Below, piece after piece: positions 5,951 to 60,634 of a DNA stretch of 64,000 nucleotides (the first letter of the stretch is position 1; each line of letters opens with the position of its first letter). A program made the translations under genes and the position numbers. The notes below the pieces were generated by a model. The model was not told where the DNA came from, did no database searches, and worked only from the letters and a program-made list of their open reading frames with translations. Source of the stretch: Lutjanus erythropterus (taxonomy: Eukaryota > Chordata > Actinopteri > Lutjaniformes > Lutjanidae); assembly GCA_020091685.1 (NCBI GenBank), contig CM034604.1, forward strand, positions 7,793,682-7,857,681, given 5' to 3'.

Positions 5951-6450
5951 NNNNNNNNNNNNNNNNNNNNNNNNNNNNNNNNNNNNNNNNNNNNNNNNNN
6001 NNNNNNNNNNNNNNNNNNNNNNNNNNNNNNNNNNNNNNNNNNNNNNNNNNNNNNNNNNNNNNNNNNNNNNNNNNNNNNNNNNNNNNNNNNNNNNNNNNNN
6101 NNNNNNNNNNNNNNNNNNNNNNNNNNNNNNNNNNNNNNNNNNNNNNNNNNNNNNNNNNNNNNNNNNNNNNNNNNNNNNNNNNNNNNNNNNNNNNNNNNNN
6201 NNNNNNNNNNNNNNNNNNNNNNNNNNNNNNNNNNNNNNNNNNNNNNNNNNNNNNNNNNNNNNNNNNNNNNNNNNNNNNNNNNNNNNNNNNNNNNNNNNNN
6301 NNNNNNNNNNNNNNNNNNNNNNNNNNNNNNNNNNNNNNNNNNNNNNNNNNNNNNNNNNNNNNNNNNNNNNNNNNNNNNNNNNNNNNNNNNNNNNNNNNNN
6401 NNNNNNNNNNNNNNNNNNNNNNNNNNNNNNNNNNNNNNNNNNNNNNNNNN
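5951..6450. other. Assembly gap (500 N)
   Basis: A run of exactly 500 N, a round number that suggests a placeholder or an estimated gap. It removes the C-terminal half of the adjoining TAAR. The missing part of the two complete paralogues (about 162 codons after the PLKY motif) is about 490 nt, so a true 500-bp gap would just accommodate it. Confidence 0.95.
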
Positions 6451-6866
6451 CTGTACCTCAGAGGCTGACACACAGCATAATATCTGTCAACAGAAATAAA
6501 GCACAAGTTCCACACAGAACATGAGCACAGATAGAGATCAAAATAGCCTTGTAATGAACAAGAGCTTTCCATAGCTGGTATCATCCCATAAGACAAAATT
6601 AATACCCCAACAAGCAGGTCAGCTACAGCAAGAGAGAGGATGAGGAAGTTTGTAGGAGTGTGGAGCTGTTTGAAGTAAATGATGGAGGTTATTACAAGAA
6701 GGTTCCCACATATTATAAGAACTGATAAAGACCCAACAAAAATATATAGTAAATATGTGATGGCTGTGATGGCTGCTTTTGTGCCAGATATATTTGGTGA
6801 TAAAAAACAGAGAATTTTGTCCTTAAAAACATCATCAGACCTGTTCACAAAAAGGCTAGATTCCAT
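6451..6866 (-). CDS. Trace amine-associated receptor, C-terminal half lost in gap
   Basis: An olfactory-type TAAR, a single-exon aminergic-like G-protein-coupled receptor of the cell surface. The visible 138 codons start at ATG 6866 and cover an N-terminus with N-glycosylation sites (NRS, NIS), TM1 with GNLLV, TM2 with [11 protein letters not shown]3 and the [10 protein letters not shown] motif. The amine-anchoring aspartate D3.32 is present (17 residues before the DRY aspartate), as is C3.25. The frame runs open into the gap. The sequence is very close to the complete genes at 11054 and 14607, and the start is supported by the same MES/MET-x-x-F-x-NRSD N-terminus in all three. Whether it is intact cannot be judged. 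Confidence 0.9.
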
Positions 6867-11053: not shown

Positions 11054-11941
11054 TCAAGAGAGCTTAGAATGAGTAAAATCACCTTGAAATATTTTCCCAG
11101 AAATGATCATTCTGAAAGCTGATCGAAACCAGCTGTAAAAGAAACCATAGATGAATGGATTGAGCATCGAATTTGACCATCCAATCCATGTAAATGCAGT
11201 AAAGACAGGAATTGGTATTGTGTAATTAGTCACAGGTTCCAAGACCCAACAAATAAAGAAAGGAGCCCAACAGATCAGAAAAACTCCCATCACAATAGCC
11301 AGAGTTTTGGTCGCCTTTCTGTCCATCTTACTTTCAGACTTTGTGCTCTGACAGGTTGTGTTCTGGATGCTGCGTGCCTGTCTCTTTGCCACAATCAAAA
11401 TCTTTAGGTAGAAGATGGACGTTATGATAGCTGGGAGGTAAAAACCCAAAATATATTGCAAATCCATACTTGAGAGGCTAAGAGCAGATAGAGTCCAGCT
11501 CAGTAAGATCATGATCATGATAACACGGACATTTATTTTACTACTGTACTTCAGAGGCTGACACACAGCAAAATATCTGTCAACAGAAATAAAGCACAAG
11601 TTCCAAACAGAAGATGTGCAGAGATAGAAATCAATAGCGCTTTGTACATCACAAGAGCTTATTGTTGTCGGTATCAAGCCATAAGGCAAAAGTAAAACCC
11701 CGAGAAGAAGGTCAGCTACAGCAAGAGAGAGGACGAGGTAGTTTGTAGGAGTGTGGAGCTGTTTGAAATAAATGATAGAGGTCATTACAAGAAGGTTCCC
11801 ACATATTATAAGAACTGATAGAGTTCCAAAAAATATATATATTAAATAAGTGATGTTGACGGCTGCTGTTGTTGATACATAACAGAGAATTTTGTCCTGA
11901 TGAACCCCATCAGACCTGTTAAGAAAAATGTTAGTTTCCAT
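11054..11941 (-). CDS. Trace amine-associated receptor, complete, short loop 2
   Basis: An intact 295-codon single-exon frame. It has an N-glycosylation site (NRS) near the N-terminus, TM1 with GNLLV, TM2 with [11 protein letters not shown]3 with D3.32 and DRYFAVCQPL, TM6 with ICWAPFFICW, and TM7 with NSMLNPFIYGFFYSWF, an exact match to the TAAR fingerprint NSxxNPxxYxxxYxWF. The expected role is G-protein-coupled detection of amines in olfactory sensory neurons. Odd point: only 12 residues separate the end of TM4 (SWTLSAL) from TM5 (FYLPAI), against 35 in the TAAR remnant at 24.5 kb. Most of extracellular loop 2 and its cysteine (partner of C3.25) are absent; the affected codons are at 11454-11489. 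Usual TAARs are about 330-345 residues. Ligand unknown; receptor function not assured. Confidence 0.93.
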   Translation of the reverse strand: METNIFLNRSDGVHQDKILCYVSTTAAVNITYLIYIFFGTLSVLIICGNLLVMTSIIYFKQLHTPTNYLVLSLAVADLLLGVLLLPYGLIPTTISSCDVQSAIDFYLCTSSVWNLCFISVDRYFAVCQPLKYSSKINVRVIMIMILLSWTLSALSLSSMDLQYILGFYLPAIITSIFYLKILIVAKRQARSIQNTTCQSTKSESKMDRKATKTLAIVMGVFLICWAPFFICWVLEPVTNYTIPIPVFTAFTWIGWSNSMLNPFIYGFFYSWFRSAFRMIISGKIFQGDFTHSKLS

Positions 11942-12540
11942 GCATAAATGATGATAACCAGTGAACTAGCATTTGTGATAACATGCTTTAAATCAAGAAA
12001 ATTAACAGTTTCTAGTTTTCTGTAGAGAGAGATTTTCAGTTAGTTTTAGTGCTCTGTGTGTTTCACACTGTACCTGTTTGGTTTGTGCATCTGTACTGAT
12101 GGGAGCTCTTGGTCTGTGACACTGAGCAGTATATTTGGATCAGAGTTGTTATTTTGGGCTCATTAGCATATCGTGGTCAAGGGAGTCTCTTAAAGGAATA
12201 GTCAGTATAGTTTGATATTGCACATCTCGTAAACTTGAAGGACTTATAAAGATGAATTAAAATAAGAAACCAGAGCAACACAGGCTGAGATATCATGACT
12301 TTTTGTTCATAAAATATGTGGTAGTTCCAATAATGCAACTCTATCCTGGTCTCTTCAGGCTGCATCCAAACAACATGACTTTACACTTTTAAATTGCATG
12401 GTTGCATACACCAAAGTACAATTCTGTTTGCATGTGACACATCAATTCTTCCCATTAACTTTTGGGGAGAGAATATCCACAGTCAGACAACCTTCATTGT
12501 CATGCATATTCAGGTGACCTTCATCATCATAATGACAAAA
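11942..12540 (-). promoter_or_regulatory. Conserved TAAR upstream module, copy 2
   Basis: Near-identical to copies 1 and 3 over at least 240 bp, then extends through the distal block (12350-12520) that is displaced in copy 1. It has TCATTAGCATATC (12160-12172), a homeodomain/POU-like core. A CTCTCTCTACAG pyrimidine tract on the gene strand (12020-12031) lies about 80 nt upstream of the ATG and could be a splice acceptor. No donor is conserved among the three copies, so an intron is not established. Confidence 0.45.
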
Positions 12541-14095
12541 TTAAACGCTTAGTTAACATCGTGAAAAAGACGCAGTTTGGGTAGGTTTAGGCAACACAAC
12601 TACTTGGTTAGGTCAGAAAAGGAAAATGGATTGGGTTAAAATAAGTATGCTAAAAAGAATTATGAAATACATCTAATACATTACTATTCCACATCTTCAC
12701 ATTACTCCAGGTTCGCAGTTTTAAAGTTAATGTACCTTAATTTCTCAATTTGCCCGATAAGTCAACCTCATGATTTATGTTGTACTTTGAGCCTTCAGAA
12801 AATTGGTGTAAAATCATTCATTTATCATTTTGTGTAAATTTACATTACTCATCATTGGACACTTCGAGGTCTGGATAGAAGGGAGTTGGGGTGACAGCAG
12901 AGCATCATGCATCATTCTGTGTCTGGCAAGGCCTTATTCAATTAAAGGTGCTGCACCGCCTTCATACCCCTAAAATCAAACTCCAAAATGTTCCCAGCTC
13001 TCAAACACTCCACATCATTCATTCCAAAGCTCTATTGTCAAAAACTAAAATCAATCATAATTGTTTCTATTCATGGTTGTCTGTTTTCTACTATAAGCTT
13101 TATAGGTTTTCTTTAACATCCCAACAAAGTAGGCTTTTACACACAAATCCTTACCAAATGAATAATAATGATTGAGTATGACAGAGCTGAGAGGTCACAG
13201 AGGTGGGGCCTTCTAAGTAGCCAACTACAGTATTTTTGAGTGAGAACAAAAAAAATCTATCTATTTAAATAGTTTTATATATAGACTTGTGTATCAATTG
13301 TGATTTTAGTTCATGTGAAAATTTAATTATGACAACCACAGAGCAGACAAAGCCCCCTGTGATTTTTTTGCCATCCCCCTTAGGGGGCCCCGGACCCCAG
13401 GTTGGGAACCAAACAACCAGATTAGGACACTTACTGCAGTTCAAGCTGATCTGGCTGATTTGGTTATCTCTTCTGCCACTATGAAATCCTCAAAGGCACT
13501 GCATTTGGCATAAAAAATATGCTCATGTATTAATATTACAAACTCATCAGGTAGACAGAGAGAGAGAGGACAGAGAGAGTAATTAGCTTACTGTAATCCT
13601 AAAAGTAAAAAAAAAACAAAAAACAAATTCTGAGTTCTCCTCTCACTTGTGGACAGGGCACAACTGGGCTAATGCAGCGGACAGGTTGAGAAGCAACAGT
13701 GTGTAAGTCTGTCTTTTAATACAAATACTTGCCAGCAGAAGAGTCCGAATCAGAGAAAAATCAGTGTAACTATGGTGTTTCTTCCTACAGAAGCTCTGGT
13801 CTGTCCTCGGCTCTCTCCGGCTGTCAGCTGCTGTGTGTTGGTCCTGTGGCTCAGCTCAAGCCCAGTCCTCACTTGTGATTTCACAGCAAAAAAATAGTAC
13901 TTTCCCTCATTTAGGTTACTGGTAACTTCAGGATGCAGACACGCTGAATTCCGCCATATTGCCCAGTTGTTTCTGTCGTTTCACTGGCAATGCATGCTTA
14001 CAAATTTGAGGGGGGAGAGAGTACTGAAGGGAGGGATGTGCTTTTCTGGCTTTTGTTTTCCATTATCAAATGTCTCTCTCCAAAATTACTCCCTC
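12541..14095. other. Intergenic, no gene recognised
   Basis: Non-coding. 13365-13412 (TAGGGGGCCCCGGACCCCAG ... TTGGGAACC) resembles the end of a common fish interspersed repeat. Short (GA)n and poly-A tracts lie near 13555-13620. Confidence 0.4.
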
Positions 14096-14606
14096 AAATT
14101 TTAACTGAAATTACTGGCGCCTTAGGTTAACACCTGTATCATTACCTCATGTTATGGGAATTGCTGTGTAAATATGTTGATATGCATACAGCTGCCTAAA
14201 TAAAATGAAGTATATGCATGATGAAGTAGAACCTAAGAGTGACTGTTCTTTTTCCATCTGCAGCCAAAACATATTATGTAGGCACAGACTAAAAACTACT
14301 GATCATTTCAACATTAATTAATTCCTGGTGTTTCATTCACAGAAACAGAGCTGTACTGCATCCGTTATGCAGCACTGAATACATACAGTAAGAAATACAG
14401 AAAATAATCAGATCCTATGATGATTTACAGACAATGACATTAAGATTATTGTATGTTTAGTGTTTGCTACCTCCTGCTATCTGTGTACTGAGTCGTACAT
14501 ACAGATACTTTATGCATAGTACAGTGGCTAATTTTATATGAGCTGCAGTAGAAAGAGATATAAATCTTCAGAGACAAACTAGTGATGATTACCAGCAAGT
14601 CATGAG
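14096..14606. repeat. TAAR 3' flank block, second copy
   Basis: 14096-14235 pairs with 9536-9670. The part nearer the gene (14300-14606) shares weaker landmarks with 10850-11053, such as GACTGAATACATACA(A/G)TAA. This shows that the duplicated unit included the 3' flank. Confidence 0.65.
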
Positions 14607-15509
14607 TCAAGAGAGCTTAGAATGAGTAAAATCACCTTGAAATATTTTTCCAGAAATGATCATTCTGAAAGCTGATCGAAACCAGCTGTAAAAGAAACCA
14701 TAGATGAATGGATTCAGCATTGAATTTGACCATCCAATCCATCTTAATGTAGAAAACACAGCAACTGGTATTGTGTAATTAGTCACAGGCTGCAAGACCC
14801 AACAAATGTAGAAAGGAGCCCAACAGATCAGAAAAATTCCCATCACAATAGCCAGAGTTTTGGTGGCCTTTCTCTCCATCTTACTTTCAGACTTTGTGCT
14901 CTCAGAGGTTGTGTTCTGGATGCTGCGTGCCTGTCTCTGTGCCACAATCAAAATCTTTATGTAGAACGCGGACATCATGATAGCTGGGAGGTAAAATCCC
15001 AAAATAAAATGTACATTTAAACTGAAGTGGCTAAGAGCAGATATAGCCCAGCTCAGGAAGATCATGATCATGATAACACGGACATTAATGTTAGTACTGT
15101 ACTTCAGAGGCTGACACACAGCAAAATATCTGTCAATGGAAATAAAGCACAAATTCCAAACAGAAGATGTGCAGAGATAGAGATCAATAGAGTTTTGTAC
15201 TGAACAAGAACTCATCGTAGTCGGTATCAAGCCATAAGACAAAAGTAAAACCCCAACAAGAAAGTCTGCTACAGCGAGAGAGAGGATGAGGAAGTTTGTA
15301 GGAGTGTGGAGCTGTTTGAAGTAAATGATGGAGGTTATTACAAGAAGGTTCCCACATATTATAAGAACTGATAAGGAGCCAAAAAATACAAATAGTAAGT
15401 AAGTAATGGCGGTGGCTGCTGTTATGTCGGGTACATCTGCTGATAAAAAACAGAGATATTTGTATTCATAATCATCATCAGACCTGTTGACAAAAGCGTT
15501 AGATTCCAT
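14607..15509 (-). CDS. Trace amine-associated receptor, complete, short loop 2
   Basis: An intact 300-codon single-exon frame, a close paralogue of the gene at 11054. NRSD glycosylation site, GNLLV in TM1, D3.32 and DRYFAVCQPL in TM3, ICWAPFYICW in TM6, and the TAAR fingerprint NSMLNPFIYGFFYSWF in TM7. The C-terminus (GKIFQGDFTHSKLS) is identical to that of its neighbour, while the first 40 residues and TM4-TM5 differ more. Loop 2 is again cut to 12 residues between SWAISAL and FYLPAI (codons at 14997-15032), removing the loop cysteine although C3.25 (SSCSVQ) is kept. Histidine falls at about 5.42, so the acidic residue used there by diamine-binding fish TAARs is absent. Probably an olfactory amine receptor. 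Confidence 0.93.
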   Translation of the reverse strand: MESNAFVNRSDDDYEYKYLCFLSADVPDITAATAITYLLFVFFGSLSVLIICGNLLVITSIIYFKQLHTPTNFLILSLAVADFLVGVLLLSYGLIPTTMSSCSVQNSIDLYLCTSSVWNLCFISIDRYFAVCQPLKYSTNINVRVIMIMIFLSWAISALSHFSLNVHFILGFYLPAIMMSAFYIKILIVAQRQARSIQNTTSESTKSESKMERKATKTLAIVMGIFLICWAPFYICWVLQPVTNYTIPVAVFSTLRWIGWSNSMLNPFIYGFFYSWFRSAFRMIISGKIFQGDFTHSKLS

Positions 15510-15995
15510 CCATAAATTATCATAAACAGTGAATTAACACTTGTAATAACATTCCTTAAATGACGGAAATTAATAGGTTGTAGTTTTCTGTAAAGAGAGA
15601 TTTTCAGTTAGTGTTAGTGCTCTGTGTGTTTCACACTGTGCTTGTTTGGTTTCTGCATCTGTACTGATGGGAGCTCTTGGTCTGTATCACTGAGCAGTAT
15701 ATTGGATCAGAGTTGTTATTTTGGGCTCATTAGCATATCATGATCAAGGGAGTCTCCTAAAGGAGTAGTCAGTATAGTTTGATATTGCACATCTTGTAAA
15801 CTTATGACGATTAATTAAAATAAGAAACTAGAGCAACAGAGGCCGAGATATCATGACTTTTTGTTCCTCAAAGTGTTGGTCAATCTGCATCCAAATTACA
15901 CAACTATACACTTTCAAAGTGCGACACAGCTGTTCTTCCCATTGACTTCTGGGGAGAGAATATGCATAATCAGAAGATTTTCATTGTCACCCATA
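15510..15995 (-). promoter_or_regulatory. Conserved TAAR upstream module, copy 3
   Basis: Shares with copies 1 and 2 the blocks TTTCTGTAAAGAGAGATTTT, GCTCTGTGTGTTTCACAC, GGGAGCTCTTGGTCTGT and TCATTAGCATATCATG, and then the distal block at 15875-15990. The CAG-pyrimidine tract (15598-15610 inverse) is kept. Confidence 0.45.
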
Positions 15996-24524: not shown

Positions 24525-25288
24525 TTAATTATAAACCCTAATTAATCTAAACAGACCTCCAAAGTGTGCACAGGATGGGATCACAGCTGTCAGATCGTGC
24601 TCCGACAGACTGTTCTGGATACTGGGTGCCTGTCTTTGTGCCACAAGGAAAATCCTCAGGTAGATACAGAGCATTATGATCACTGGGAAATAAAATGAGA
24701 CAAGAGAGCCAGTTATATTTGAATCTGGAATCTGAAATATGAGACACCTTCCATCACAGACAGTATGCTTAAGTCCTTCAAATGTGATGCCAAATCTAGT
24801 TAGAGCAGCAAGAGTCCAGCTCAGCAGGATCATGATCATGACAACATGTCCATTTATCTTGGTTCTGTATGTCAGGGGCTGACACACAGCATAATATCTG
24901 TCAATAGAAATACAACACAAGTGGAGAATGGATGAACTCATCAGTAACATATCAAAGCTGTCGCATTTTACATGCTAAATCCCCAAAATAGAAACACAAC
25001 TTTACAGACAGTGCCATGTTGAACACTGAAACCCATACCCCCTACAAGCAGGTCAGCAACAGCCAGAGAGTGTGGAGTGTGGAGCTGTTTGAAGTAAATA
25101 ATGGAGATTATTACAAGAAGGTTTCCACCAATTGTAAGAAAAGATACTATACTGCCAATGAACAAACATAAAACTACACATATTGTGGTAGGGGTCATTG
25201 CAATTATGCAAGAGCCATTACCTAATTCATGACAGAAATGCATGACCTTGACATTATCAGTCTTGTTGACGATGATTTCAGGTCCCAT
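24525..25288 (-). pseudogene. TAAR pseudogene, missing TM6-TM7
   Basis: Starts at ATG 25288 (MGPEIIVNKTDN). TM1 ([18 protein letters not shown]) is intact. TM2 has lost about five codons ([11 protein letters not shown]), then a frameshift near 25030 disrupts TM2-TM3. A second frame from about 24965 resumes with D3.32 (FDMLLM), [12 protein letters not shown]4, a full-length loop 2 with its cysteines (VCDGRC) and TM5 (FYFPVIIMLCIYL). After QAPSIQN the TAAR similarity ends near 24600, with no TM6, TM7 or fingerprint. Its normal-length loop 2 makes it the best local comparison for the shortened loops of the two intact genes. It belongs to a different TAAR subgroup, closer to the array copies at 34-60 kb. 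Confidence 0.85.
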
Positions 25289-25333
25289 GTTTTCAGGATC
25301 CAGAAATGTTCTTAAACAATTCAGTTTTCGCAA

Positions 25334-34187: not shown

Positions 34188-35116
34188 CTTGAGTTAGTAA
34201 AATCACCTTGAATATTTTTCCAGAAATTATCATTTAAAAGCTGACCTGAACCAGCTGTAAAAGAAAGCATATAAAGGATTCAGCAGTGAGTTTGACAATG
34301 TAATCCAGGTGTTTCATACAGGAAGGTGGGATTTTAAGAAAAAAGGATAAATAATTAACAAGAAGAGTTAGGAATCATGCACAAGAGAAAACTCCCATAA
34401 CTAGCCAGAGTTTTGGTGGCCTTTTCTCCATCTTACTGACTGTTGCTCCAGACTTTGTGCTCTGGATGCTCTTCACCTGTTTCTGAGCAACAAGAAAAAT
34501 CTTCAGTAGATACAGAGCATTATGATTGCAGTAAAAGGAGAAAAGAGGCCCATAATTTTGCTACTACAAAATTAACTGAGCACTTTTTCACATCCATGAC
34601 TGAATCCTGCAATTTGATGCAAATTCCGATTAGAACAGAAATACTCCAGCACACCAGGATCATGATCACAGTAAAATACACTGACTTTAGTTCTGTATGT
34701 CAAGGGCTGACACACTGCATAATATCTGTCTATGGAAATACAAGATAAGTTCAGAATAGAAGATGTGCACAGTGCCATCAAAGCTGTCTGTATTTTACAA
34801 AGATAAACTTTATGAAACAGGCACAATGTTAAAGAGAATGCCATGCAGTGAGAGACAAAACCCTACAAGCTATTCGCCACAGCCAGAGACAGGATGAGGT
34901 AGTTTGTAGGGATGTGCATGTTTGAAATAAATGATGGAGATTATTACAAGAAGATTTACATACTGTTACAACAGATATAAGCTGAGGAAAATATATGCAA
35001 AAACAACATATTATGGAAGGGTTACTTGTAAATATGAAGGTTGTATTATCTAATTCATAGCAGGGATGTATGTCATTGATAATGTAAGTCACATTGACTG
35101 TCTGGTTTGGTTCCAT
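34188..35116 (-). pseudogene. TAAR copy A, frame broken
   Basis: Start ATG 35116 ([11 protein letters not shown]), glycosylation sites NQT and NVT. TM1-TM2 are broken by small deletions, for example GTGCATGTTTG at 34914 where the other copies have GTGCAGCTGTTTG. TM3 keeps [18 protein letters not shown], but a 2-base deletion just before it breaks the link to D3.32. The TM4-TM7 region is recognisable in pieces down to the end near 34188. Copies B to D carry different breaks, so these lesions are private. On the gene strand an ATTTATATAT TATA-like box lies about 50-60 nt upstream of the ATG in all copies. Confidence 0.85.
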
Positions 35117-43658: not shown

Positions 43659-44623
43659 TCAAAACAGTCTTGAGTTAGTAAAATCACCTTGGAATATTTT
43701 TCCAGAAATTATCATTTAAAAGCTGACCGGAACCAGCTGTAAAGAAAGCATATATAAAGGATTCAGCAGTGAGTTTGACAATGTAATCCAGTGAAGTGTT
43801 TCAGTTACAGGAAGTGGTGGATTTTATGAAATAAAGGATAAACACCAACAAGAAGAAAGTTAGGAATCATGCACAAGAGAAAACTCCCATAACTATAGCC
43901 AGAGTTTTGGTGGCCTTTTTCTCCATCTTACTGACTGTTGCTCCAGACTTTGTGCTCTGGATGCTCTTCACCTGTTTCTGAGCAACAAGAAAATCTTCAG
44001 GTAGATACAGAGCATTATGATTGCTGGCAGGTAAAAGGAGAAAAGAGGGCCCATAATGATTGCTACTACAAAATTAACTGAGCACTTTTCTGCACATCCA
44101 TGACTGAATCCTGCACTTATGCCAATTCGATTAGAACAGAAATACTCCAGCACACCAGGATCATGATCACAGTAACACGAGCACTTACTTTAGTTCTGTA
44201 TGTCAAGGGCTGACACACTGCATAATATCTGTCTATGGAAATACAACATAAGTTCAGAATAGAAGATGTGCACAGTGCTACATCAATGCCGTCTCGTATT
44301 TTACAAGATAAATCACAAACAGGCACAATATTAAAGAGAATACCATGTTGTAAGGAAAGACTAAAACCCCTACAGGTCGGCCACAGCCAGAGACAGGATG
44401 AGGTAGTTTGTAGGGATGTGCAGCTGTTTGAAATAAATGATGGAGATTATTACAAGAAGATTTCCACATACTGTTACAACAGATAATAAGCCAAAGGAAA
44501 ATATATGCAAAAACACATATTATGGAAGGGTTACTTGTAAATATGAAGGTTGTATTATCTAATTCATAGCAGGGATGTATGTCATTGATAATAAGTCACA
44601 TTGACTGTCTGGTTTGGTTCCAT
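43659..44623 (-). pseudogene. TAAR copy B, frame broken
   Basis: Start ATG 44623. A readable segment spans TM3 with D3.32 ([10 protein letters not shown]), [10 protein letters not shown] and TM4 (VCWSIS), then a frameshift near 44125. Loop 2 with cysteines (GCAEKCS), TM5 (FYLPAIIMLCIYL) and TM6-TM7 follow in other frames. Breaks differ from copies A, C and D. TATA-like box at 44674-44686 (inverse). Confidence 0.85.
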
Positions 44624-53158: not shown

Positions 53159-54113
53159 TCAAAACAGTCTTGAGTTAGTAAAATCACCTGGAATATTTTT
53201 CCAGAAATTATCATTTTAAAAGCTGACCGGAACCAGCTGTAAAAGAAAGCATATATAAAGGGATTCAGCATTGAGTTTGACAATGAAATCCAGTGAAGTG
53301 TTTCAGCTACAGGAAGTGGTGAGGTTTCATGTATTAAGGATAAAACCAAGATGAAGAAAGTTAGAATCATGCACAAGAGAAAAACTCCCATAACTATAGC
53401 CAGAGTTTTGGTGGCCTTTTTTCTCCATCTTACTGACTGTTGCTCCAGACTTTGTGCTCTGATGCTCTTCACCTGTTTCTGAGCAACAAGAAAAATCTTC
53501 AGGTAGATACAGAGCATTATGATTGCTGGCAAAGGAGAAAAGAGGGCCCATAATGATTGCTAGCCAAAATCAAGCACTTTTCTTCACATCCTTGGCTGAA
53601 TCCTGCAATTATGATGCAAATTCCATTAGAACAGAAATACTCCAGCACACCAGGATCTGATCACAGTAACACGAAGCACTTACTTTAGTTCTGTATCAAG
53701 GGCTGACACACTGCATAATATCTGTCTATGGAAATACAACATAAATTCAGAATAGAAGATGCACAGTGTTATATCAATGCCGTCTCGATTTTACAAGACA
53801 AATCCTCACTAAACATGCACAATGTTAAAGAGAATGCCATGCTGAAAGGAAAGACTAAAACCCTAAGCAGGTCGGCCACAGCCAGAGACAGGATGAGGTA
53901 GTTTGTAGGGATGTGCAGCTGTTTGAAATAAATAATGGAGATTATTACAAGAAGATTTCCACATACTGTTGCAACAGATAATAAGCCAAGGAAAATATAT
54001 GCAAAACACATATTATGGAAGGGTTACTTGTAAATATGTAGGTTGTATTATCTGATTCATAGCAGGGATGTATGTCATTGATAATGTTACATTGACTGTC
54101 AGTTTGGTTCCAT
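53159..54113 (-). pseudogene. TAAR copy C, frame broken
   Basis: Start ATG 54113. TM1-TM2 are open ([27 protein letters not shown]). TM3 and the DRY region are disrupted (GTATCAAGGG at 53693 lacks bases present in B). A long open segment covers TM5 to the C-terminus: ICK-type loop 3, KATKTLAIVMGVFLLC, and the fingerprint NSMLNPFIYAFFYSWF (53532-53146). At least three frameshifts. Confidence 0.87.
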
Positions 54114-59675: not shown

Positions 59676-60634
59676 TCAAAACAGTCTTGAGTTAGTAAAA
59701 TCACTTGGAATATTTTTCCAGAAATTATCATTTAAAAGCTGACCGGAACCAGCTGTAAAAGAAAGCATATATAAAGGGATTCAGCATTGAGTTTGACAAT
59801 GTAATCCAGTGAAGTGTTTCACTACAGGAAGTGGTGGGATTTATGAAATATAGGATAAACACCAACAACAAGAAAGTTAGAATCATGCACAAGAGAAAAC
59901 TCCCATAACTATAGCCAGAGTTTTGGTGGCCTTTTCTCCATCTTACTGACTGTTGCCCAGACTTTGTGCTCTGGATGCTCTTCACCTGTTTCTGAGCAAC
60001 AAGAAAAATTCAGGTATACAGAGCATTATGATGCTGGAGGTAAAAGGAGAAAAGAGGGCCCATAATGATTGCTACTACAAAATTAACTGAGCACTTTTCT
60101 TCACATCCATGACTGAATCCTGCAATTATGCCAATTCGATTAGAACAGAAATACTCCAGCACACCAGGATCATGATCACAGTAACACTAGCACTTACTTT
60201 AGTTCTGTATGTCAAGGGCTGACACACTGCATAATATCTGTCTATGGAAATACAACATAAGTTCAGAATAGAAGATGCACAGTGCTATATCAATGCCGCC
60301 TCTAATTTACAAGATAAATCACATTAAACAGGCACAATGTTAAAGACAATACCATGTTGTTAAGGAAAGACTAAAACCCCTAAGCAGGTCGGCCACAGCC
60401 AGAGACAGGATGAGGTAGTTTGTAGGGATGTGCAGCTGTTTGAAATAAATGATGGAGATTATTACAAGAAGATTTCCACATACTGTTACAACAGATAATA
60501 AGCCAAGGAAAATATATGCAAAACACATACACATGGAAGGGTTACTTGTAAATATGAAGGTTGTCTTATCTAATTCATAGCAGGGATATGTCATTGATAA
60601 TGTAAGTCACATTGACTGTCTGGTTTGGTTCCAT
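59676..60634 (-). pseudogene. TAAR copy D, frame broken
   Basis: Start ATG 60634. TM1-TM2 are open ([29 protein letters not shown]). A frameshift follows, then DRYYAVC in another frame, and an open TM6-TM7 segment with the fingerprint NSMLNPFIYAFFYSWF (59985-59728). Lesions include CAGGTATACAG at 60010, where B and C have CAGGTAGATACAG. TATA-like box at 60685-60697 (inverse). Confidence 0.87.

Follow-up and report, generated by a model that had tools for sequence, protein, structure and literature searches.

Can a receptor for amines work when most of its extracellular loop 2, and with it the disulphide partner of the cysteine in transmembrane helix (TM) 3, has been deleted? The question is raised by two intact genes of the trace amine-associated receptor (TAAR) type, here called gene A and gene B, in a window of 64,000 nucleotides from Lutjanus erythropterus (contig CM034604.1; C14:7793682-7857681 in our numbering of contigs). 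The loss had been noticed in these two genes by a first-pass annotation of the window. Here, we report that this observation is correct and was understated, as the trait is clade-wide: at least 31 distinct intact genes, genes A and B included, have lost parts of both loop 1 and loop 2. From their sequences, these genes look like working, diversifying receptors rather than decoys. The explanation we favour, with a probability of roughly 0.55, is a working TAAR-type clade in which the disulphide between TM3 and loop 2 has been replaced by one between the N-terminus and TM3, and in which the N-terminus partly caps the pocket.

Genes sampled

The genome searched comprised 937.6 Mb in 444 contigs. 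Gene A as query gave 166 matches, many with internal stops, and 133 of 875 first-look candidates were scored; the counts given here are lower bounds. From among the matches listed, 100 loci were retrieved (L001-L100), and L001-L040 were of the short-loop type. The 31 distinct intact short-loop genes are L001-L022, L024-L031 and L039. Excluded from this number were L032-L034, which have the same protein as L031, and L035, L036, L037, L038 and L040, which are broken or truncated or lie at the end of a contig; L023 was handled separately. For comparison, 12 intact normal-loop paralogues (L041-L045 and L047-L053) were used together with two TAARs from contig C4, identified by phmmer as TAAR1-like (L055) and TAAR13-like (L056). 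The alignment was made without L046, L054 and L057-L060, which are partial, broken or contain N. A total of 43 loci (L061-L100, L038, L057 and L058) were typed by tblastn alone, in which L072, L096, L097 and L098 gave no match to the query pieces. Residues are numbered by the Ballesteros-Weinstein convention, assigned from the alignment with W4.50, P5.50 and C3.25 as anchors.

Loss of parts of two extracellular loops

The stretch from TM4 to TM5 reads SWTLSAL-SLSSMDLQYILG-FYLPAI in gene A and SWAISAL-SHFSLNVHFILG-FYLPAI in gene B. Counted by hand, 12 residues lie between the motifs in both genes versus 35 in a TAAR remnant at 24.5 kb of the window, in agreement with the original count. The cysteine of loop 2 is gone, while C3.25, D3.32, DRY, CWAP, NPxxY and the TAAR fingerprint of TM7 are all present in both genes, again as first described. 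The position first given for the residual loop was accurate in gene B (14997-15032) but ten bases off in gene A, where 11454-11489 should be 11444-11479.

Throughout the clade, W4.50 and P5.50 are separated by 20 residues (n=31; 21 in L018), compared with 41-43 in the 12 normal-loop paralogues, 53 in L055 and 52 in L056. The distance in L023 is 25 residues. Loop 1 is 7 residues shorter in the short-loop genes and has one cysteine where the others have two, and the proline position of TM2 is followed by C3.25 after 5 residues rather than 11 or 12. The W23.50 position was lost with this piece of loop 1, although a tryptophan is also absent there in six of the seven genes of the normal-loop group L047-L053. 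The net loss amounts to 69 nucleotides from loop 2 and 21 from loop 1. A search for the breakpoints in loop 2 did not settle on a position: for the consensus of the short-loop genes the single-deletion split was matched by 235 of 2000 shuffles and the local alignment by 371 of 1000, and for L023 by 113 of 2000 and by 41 of 1000, respectively.

Kinship of the short-loop genes

A maximum-likelihood tree was built from 46 proteins, all from this one genome, with the columns of both loops removed; in it the 31 short-loop genes were monophyletic with an ultrafast bootstrap value of 100. L023 was their sister (support 82), followed by the normal-loop group L041-L045, and the clade as a whole falls among paralogues with normal loops from the same arrays. 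Its closest kinship is with TAARs, inside both the TAAR tree and the TAAR arrays, and the loops of the related groups L041-L045 and L047-L053 are normal. Genes A and B match Pfam 7tm_1 (E ~5e-46), and among receptors of solved structure gene A comes closest to TAAR1 (E 1.5e-65) and to the TAAR13 receptors (E ~1e-55); NCBIfam profiles gave no useful match.

The TM7 fingerprint NSxxNPxxYxxxYxWF, as given in PMC12294341, is found in all 31 genes, as are DRY, NPxxY and an N-terminal glycosylation sequon. The tryptophan at 6.48 is kept in 30 and D3.32 in 29, genes A and B included. The set was chosen for intactness, which biases the reading frames but not single residues. By kinship and fingerprint the short-loop genes are TAARs with an unusual extracellular face. 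Kinship with the melanocortin receptors was rejected, since 3.25 is cysteine in 31/31 and the best solved matches are TAARs. The spliced percomorph subfamilies A1-A4 and A7 were likewise rejected, as the frames run uninterrupted through YFKQLHTP or YFKQLQTP in all 31; the phase-0 intron of TAARs in cichlids and other percomorph fishes lies in intracellular loop 1, mostly between a phenylalanine and a basic residue (PMC4415300).

The sister gene L023 (C14:7385100-7387100) combines a short loop 2 with a full loop 1, has lost the N-terminal cysteine and has kept both cysteines of loop 1 and TM3. Its broken relative L070 (C14:7422600-7424400) is in the same loop and cysteine state. It was also observed that NTFIY replaces NPxxY in L023.

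Extracellular cysteines

The disulphide between C3.25 and C45.50 is a general trait of class A receptors and does not define TAARs. In the short-loop genes the aligned positions of loop 2 hold no cysteine in any of the 31, which leaves C3.25 without this partner. Exactly two extracellular cysteines are found in 30 of the 31 genes, one in the N-terminus and one at 3.25, and both are invariant throughout (31/31). The normal-loop groups have four (L041-L045, 5/5) or six (L047-L053, 7/7), L056 has eight, and the two cysteines of L023 are both those of loop 1 and TM3. In a site model with free synonymous (alpha) and non-synonymous (beta) rates, mean beta over the 30 N-terminal codons was 2.58. For the N-terminal cysteine it was 0.06, the second lowest value after the start codon, and the log-likelihood (lnL) of this site was -4.1 at best versus -11.6 at alpha=beta=1.

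Selection and gene conversion

Mean pairwise dN/dS (Nei-Gojobori) in the short-loop clade falls from 1.19 in extracellular parts to 0.71 in the TMs and 0.48 in intracellular parts (0.82 overall). The corresponding values are 0.45, 0.44 and 0.39 (0.44 overall) in L041-L045 and 0.58, 0.24 and 0.20 (0.31 overall) in L047-L053. In the short-loop genes the site model put P(beta>alpha) above 0.9 at 25 sites, 12 of them in the N-terminus and outer loops and 13 in the TMs, the latter not all close to the pocket mouth; of the intracellular codons, 77 in number, none reached this value. A single such site, in loop 2, was seen in the 12 normal-loop genes.

The proportion of synonymous differences (pS) also varies along the short-loop genes, from 0.023 in helix 8 and the C-terminus, 0.05 in intracellular loop 3 and 0.10 in intracellular loop 2 to 0.30-0.44 in extracellular parts. 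It is flatter in L047-L053 and in between in L041-L045 (0.027 in intracellular loop 3). Such low intracellular values (0.02-0.10) suggest that gene conversion homogenises the inner face while the outer face is diversifying.

About 230 bp upstream of the start codon are alignable among the short-loop genes. In the best 40 columns the pairwise distance averages 0.074, below the pS of the TMs (0.19). This conservation is compatible with a promoter or leader that has been kept, and equally with gene conversion. In the window, the conserved block lies at about 11956-12176 and 15524-15745, with a GATATGCTAATGAG-like core. Expression in the nose may be presumed for these receptors, but the pattern used for an olfactory O/E-type promoter site matched just 1 of 34 upstream regions of short-loop genes and 0 of 6 of normal-loop genes, and such a site is thus unsupported. 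A splice donor in the 5' untranslated region of gene A, seen by eye, was dropped because it is missing from the upstream consensus.

Residues of the ligand site

Position 5.43, anchored on P5.50, is acidic in 18 of the 31 short-loop genes (15 Asp, 3 Glu), all of which have D3.32, and in 0 of the 12 normal-loop genes. No short-loop gene has an acid at 5.42, and membership in teleost clade III was rejected on this ground and on the presence of Asp3.32 in 29/31. Basic residues at 3.26 and 3.28, found in all five genes of L041-L045, were not found there in the short-loop genes. Among zebrafish TAARs, those for di-cations are recognised by D3.32 together with D5.42, and the latter site has been aligned with Asp5.43 of certain mammalian TAARs (PMC4695389). 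The acid at 5.43 is a possible second cation site, and suggests di- or polycationic ligands for the 18 genes that carry it. That the clade of more than 30 genes unites an N-terminus-TM3 disulphide, an N-terminal lid and, in over half of its members, a 5.43 acid serving di- or polycationic odorants is a tentative proposal. As a separate observation, the TAAR13-like gene on contig C4 (L056, C4:47145600-47147500) has both Asp3.32 and Asp5.42 and is near the solved TAAR13e (E 3.7e-138).

Explanations of the loop losses

In the scheme that we prefer, most of loop 2 and part of loop 1 would have been lost before the tandem expansion of the clade, with the Asp3.32 amine anchor and the G-protein face retained. 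The N-terminal cysteine would bond the single cysteine left at 3.25 and so stand in for the canonical disulphide, and the N-terminus, not loop 2, would most likely fold over and partly cap the wide mouth of the pocket, while the paralogues diversify in their outer parts and in the membrane. With the disulphide replaced in this way the pocket would be neither disulphide-free nor simply open. The first-pass annotation had offered a choice between an open, disulphide-free pocket and non-signalling decoys. Its premise of a paralogue-wide, in-frame loss with the canonical disulphide gone and the rest intact is upheld, but decoys are disfavoured and the absence of any disulphide is doubtful. An open pocket would mean working amine receptors without an intramolecular disulphide, whose two cysteines are free or engaged in N-terminus-linked dimers. 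This is an unlikely explanation, though it accounts for the same loop and motif data, and N-terminal cysteines of TAARs have been proposed to link dimers (PMC8745718). It is opposed by the joint invariance of the N-terminal cysteine and C3.25, which are the only two extracellular cysteines in 30/31, and by L023 and L070, which are in the other loop state and drop the N-terminal cysteine, a pattern to be expected of cysteines that act pairwise.

Less likely again are relaxed, decaying or decoy receptors in an array of fast birth and death. The same arrays contain many matches with internal stops, the whole-gene M0 omega discussed below is 0.89, and homogenisation by gene conversion could leave the inner parts similar even if the single copies were not under selection. 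Decay is opposed by the intact DRY, NPxxY and TM7 fingerprint (31/31), by D3.32 in 29/31 and by the lack of intracellular codons above 0.9 (0/77), as well as by a dN/dS that exceeds 1 outside but not inside, where it is below 1, which is unexpected under plain relaxation. Virtually no weight is given to an assembly deletion or missed intron that conceals a normal loop 2, for which no supporting point was found. The codons of TM4 and TM5 are joined by 36 contiguous bp and those across both loops are contiguous in the DNA, so no intron can conceal a loop, and the TAAR intron of cichlids and other percomorph fishes described in PMC4415300 is not at loop 2. The shared state of 31 distinct genes, of which the other 30 are 64-90 per cent identical to gene A, rules out an assembly error; in the window, the two gaps of 500 N lie outside genes A and B. 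A re-wired disulphide is thus our best reading, followed by an open pocket with free cysteines or dimers and then by decay.

Several observations weigh against the re-wired disulphide. P(beta<alpha) is just 0.51 for the N-terminal cysteine, compared with 0.93 for C3.25 and 0.81 for D3.32, with both rates equal and very low in the best fit; this is because its codon is TGT in 31/31, leaving zero synonymous change for comparison. The same cysteine is also kept in relatives with normal loops, which makes part of its conservation ancestral. Nor is an even number of cysteines a rule, as L028 has three (the extra one at the end of TM4) and the TAAR1-like L055 has seven. The DNA of loop 1 speaks for the re-wired disulphide in that a 24-nucleotide deletion between two cysteine codons with a 3-nucleotide insertion (45/60 matches) seems to fit better than a plain 21-nucleotide deletion (39/63), but the former has one extra free choice; under that fit, today's C3.25 would derive from the cysteine of loop 1. 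An AlphaFold2 model from an alignment of five window sequences was unusable (mean predicted local distance difference test score 43.2, predicted template modelling score 0.25). Genes A and B themselves lack the acid at 5.43, having Tyr and Phe, respectively. Permitting beta>alpha raised lnL by 37 in the short-loop genes and by 0.8 in the normal-loop control, a difference in favour of diversifying receptors, but the control is the smaller set (12 vs 31) and has less power, and gene conversion makes any test based on a single tree less reliable. Finally, the first-pass annotation had named beforehand a dN/dS near 1 as grounds for refutation, and the whole-gene M0 omega of the clade, 0.89, comes part of the way; it is, however, a mix of inner parts under constraint and outer parts that evolve fast.

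Other features of the window

The third copy listed in Table 1 is interrupted by an assembly gap of 500 N at 5951-6450, and its loop 2 is outside the assembled part. Further broken TAAR remnants lie on the same strand in the rest of the window (34207-34956, 43665-44510, 53188-53999 and 59682-60516); judged by eye, these four resemble the normal-loop group. Elsewhere on the contig, L031-L034 (C14:5893104-5922326) are four short-loop copies with an exact spacing of 9,447 bp and the same protein. About 1.9 kb surrounding them is identical in three, while an ungapped comparison shows 268 differences over 1901 positions for the fourth. They represent either an assembly repeat or a tandem array that arose very recently.

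Table 1. Positions of the TAAR-type features within the 64,000-nucleotide window.
Feature	Position	Strand	Remark
Gene A, TAAR-type receptor, intact, 295 amino acids, loops 1 and 2 short	11054..11941	-	Complete open reading frame; L001
Gene B, TAAR-type receptor, intact, 300 amino acids, loop losses as in gene A	14607..15509	-	Complete open reading frame; L004
Residual extracellular loop 2 of gene A, 12 codons, without cysteine	11444..11479	-	
Residual extracellular loop 2 of gene B, 12 codons, without cysteine	14997..15032	-	
Third copy of short-loop type, N-terminus to intracellular loop 2 only	6453..6866	-	L095; short loop 1 and N-terminal cysteine
Broken normal-loop TAAR remnant, 35-residue loop 2 with two cysteines	24525..25333	-	Comparison only
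Upstream block of gene A, ~-15 to -235 from ATG	11956..12176	-	Alignable in short-loop genes

Comparison with known receptors

The TAARs with solved structures (TAAR1, TAAR13a/c/d/e, TAAR9 and TAAR7f) have the TM7 fingerprint, D3.32 and DRY in common with the short-loop clade, which differs from them in being without loop 2 and its cysteine and without one loop-1 cysteine. According to PMC8745718, 'absolutely all TAARs' have three cysteines corresponding to loop 1, 3.25 and loop 2, and PMC4415300 reports for cichlid TAARs that every molecule has a cysteine in the N-terminus and that loop 1 has two; the short-loop clade departs from both patterns. It had been stated at first pass that no described TAAR group has such a loop. 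None was found in the literature searched, which did not extend to the founding fish papers (Hussain 2009; Hashiguchi and Nishida 2007) or to most subscription papers. Like the short-loop clade, the clade III TAARs of zebrafish are a large fish expansion, but they differ in the residues at 3.32 and 5.42, having mostly lost D3.32 and using D5.42 while still being TAARs (PMC4695389).

Breaking the bond between C3.25 and loop 2 in aminergic receptors reportedly lowers ligand affinity about 1000-fold (PMC8854740). In TAAR7f this bond holds loop 2 above the pocket, where the loop makes no contact with the ligand (PMC11364543), so that amine binding may persist without the loop. As a naturally expanded, diversifying clade without loop 2 and its bond exists beside normal-loop paralogues in shared arrays, both the role of the loop and the re-wiring of disulphides become directly testable, and the clade offers a very small natural extracellular face of the aminergic type for study. 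If the disulphide has indeed been swapped, the clade would be a natural test of the role of loop 2 in class A receptors.

Seven-helix chemoreceptors without a disulphide between TM3 and loop 2 are also known in the T2R bitter receptors, which are not aminergic. The nearest analogue in design is the melanocortin receptor MC4R, which has a four-residue loop 2 without cysteine, lacks the canonical bond and carries a disulphide between the N-terminus and loop 3 (PMC8563958). It thus resembles the short-loop clade in its very short, cysteine-free loop 2 and in the absence of the canonical disulphide. Its N-terminus is tethered by another disulphide, and a counterpart tether probably exists in the short-loop clade. 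The likeness is one of analogy only, as MC4R is a peptide receptor with Asp at 3.25 in a network of calcium and ligand, and its N-terminus is bonded to loop 3, not to TM3.

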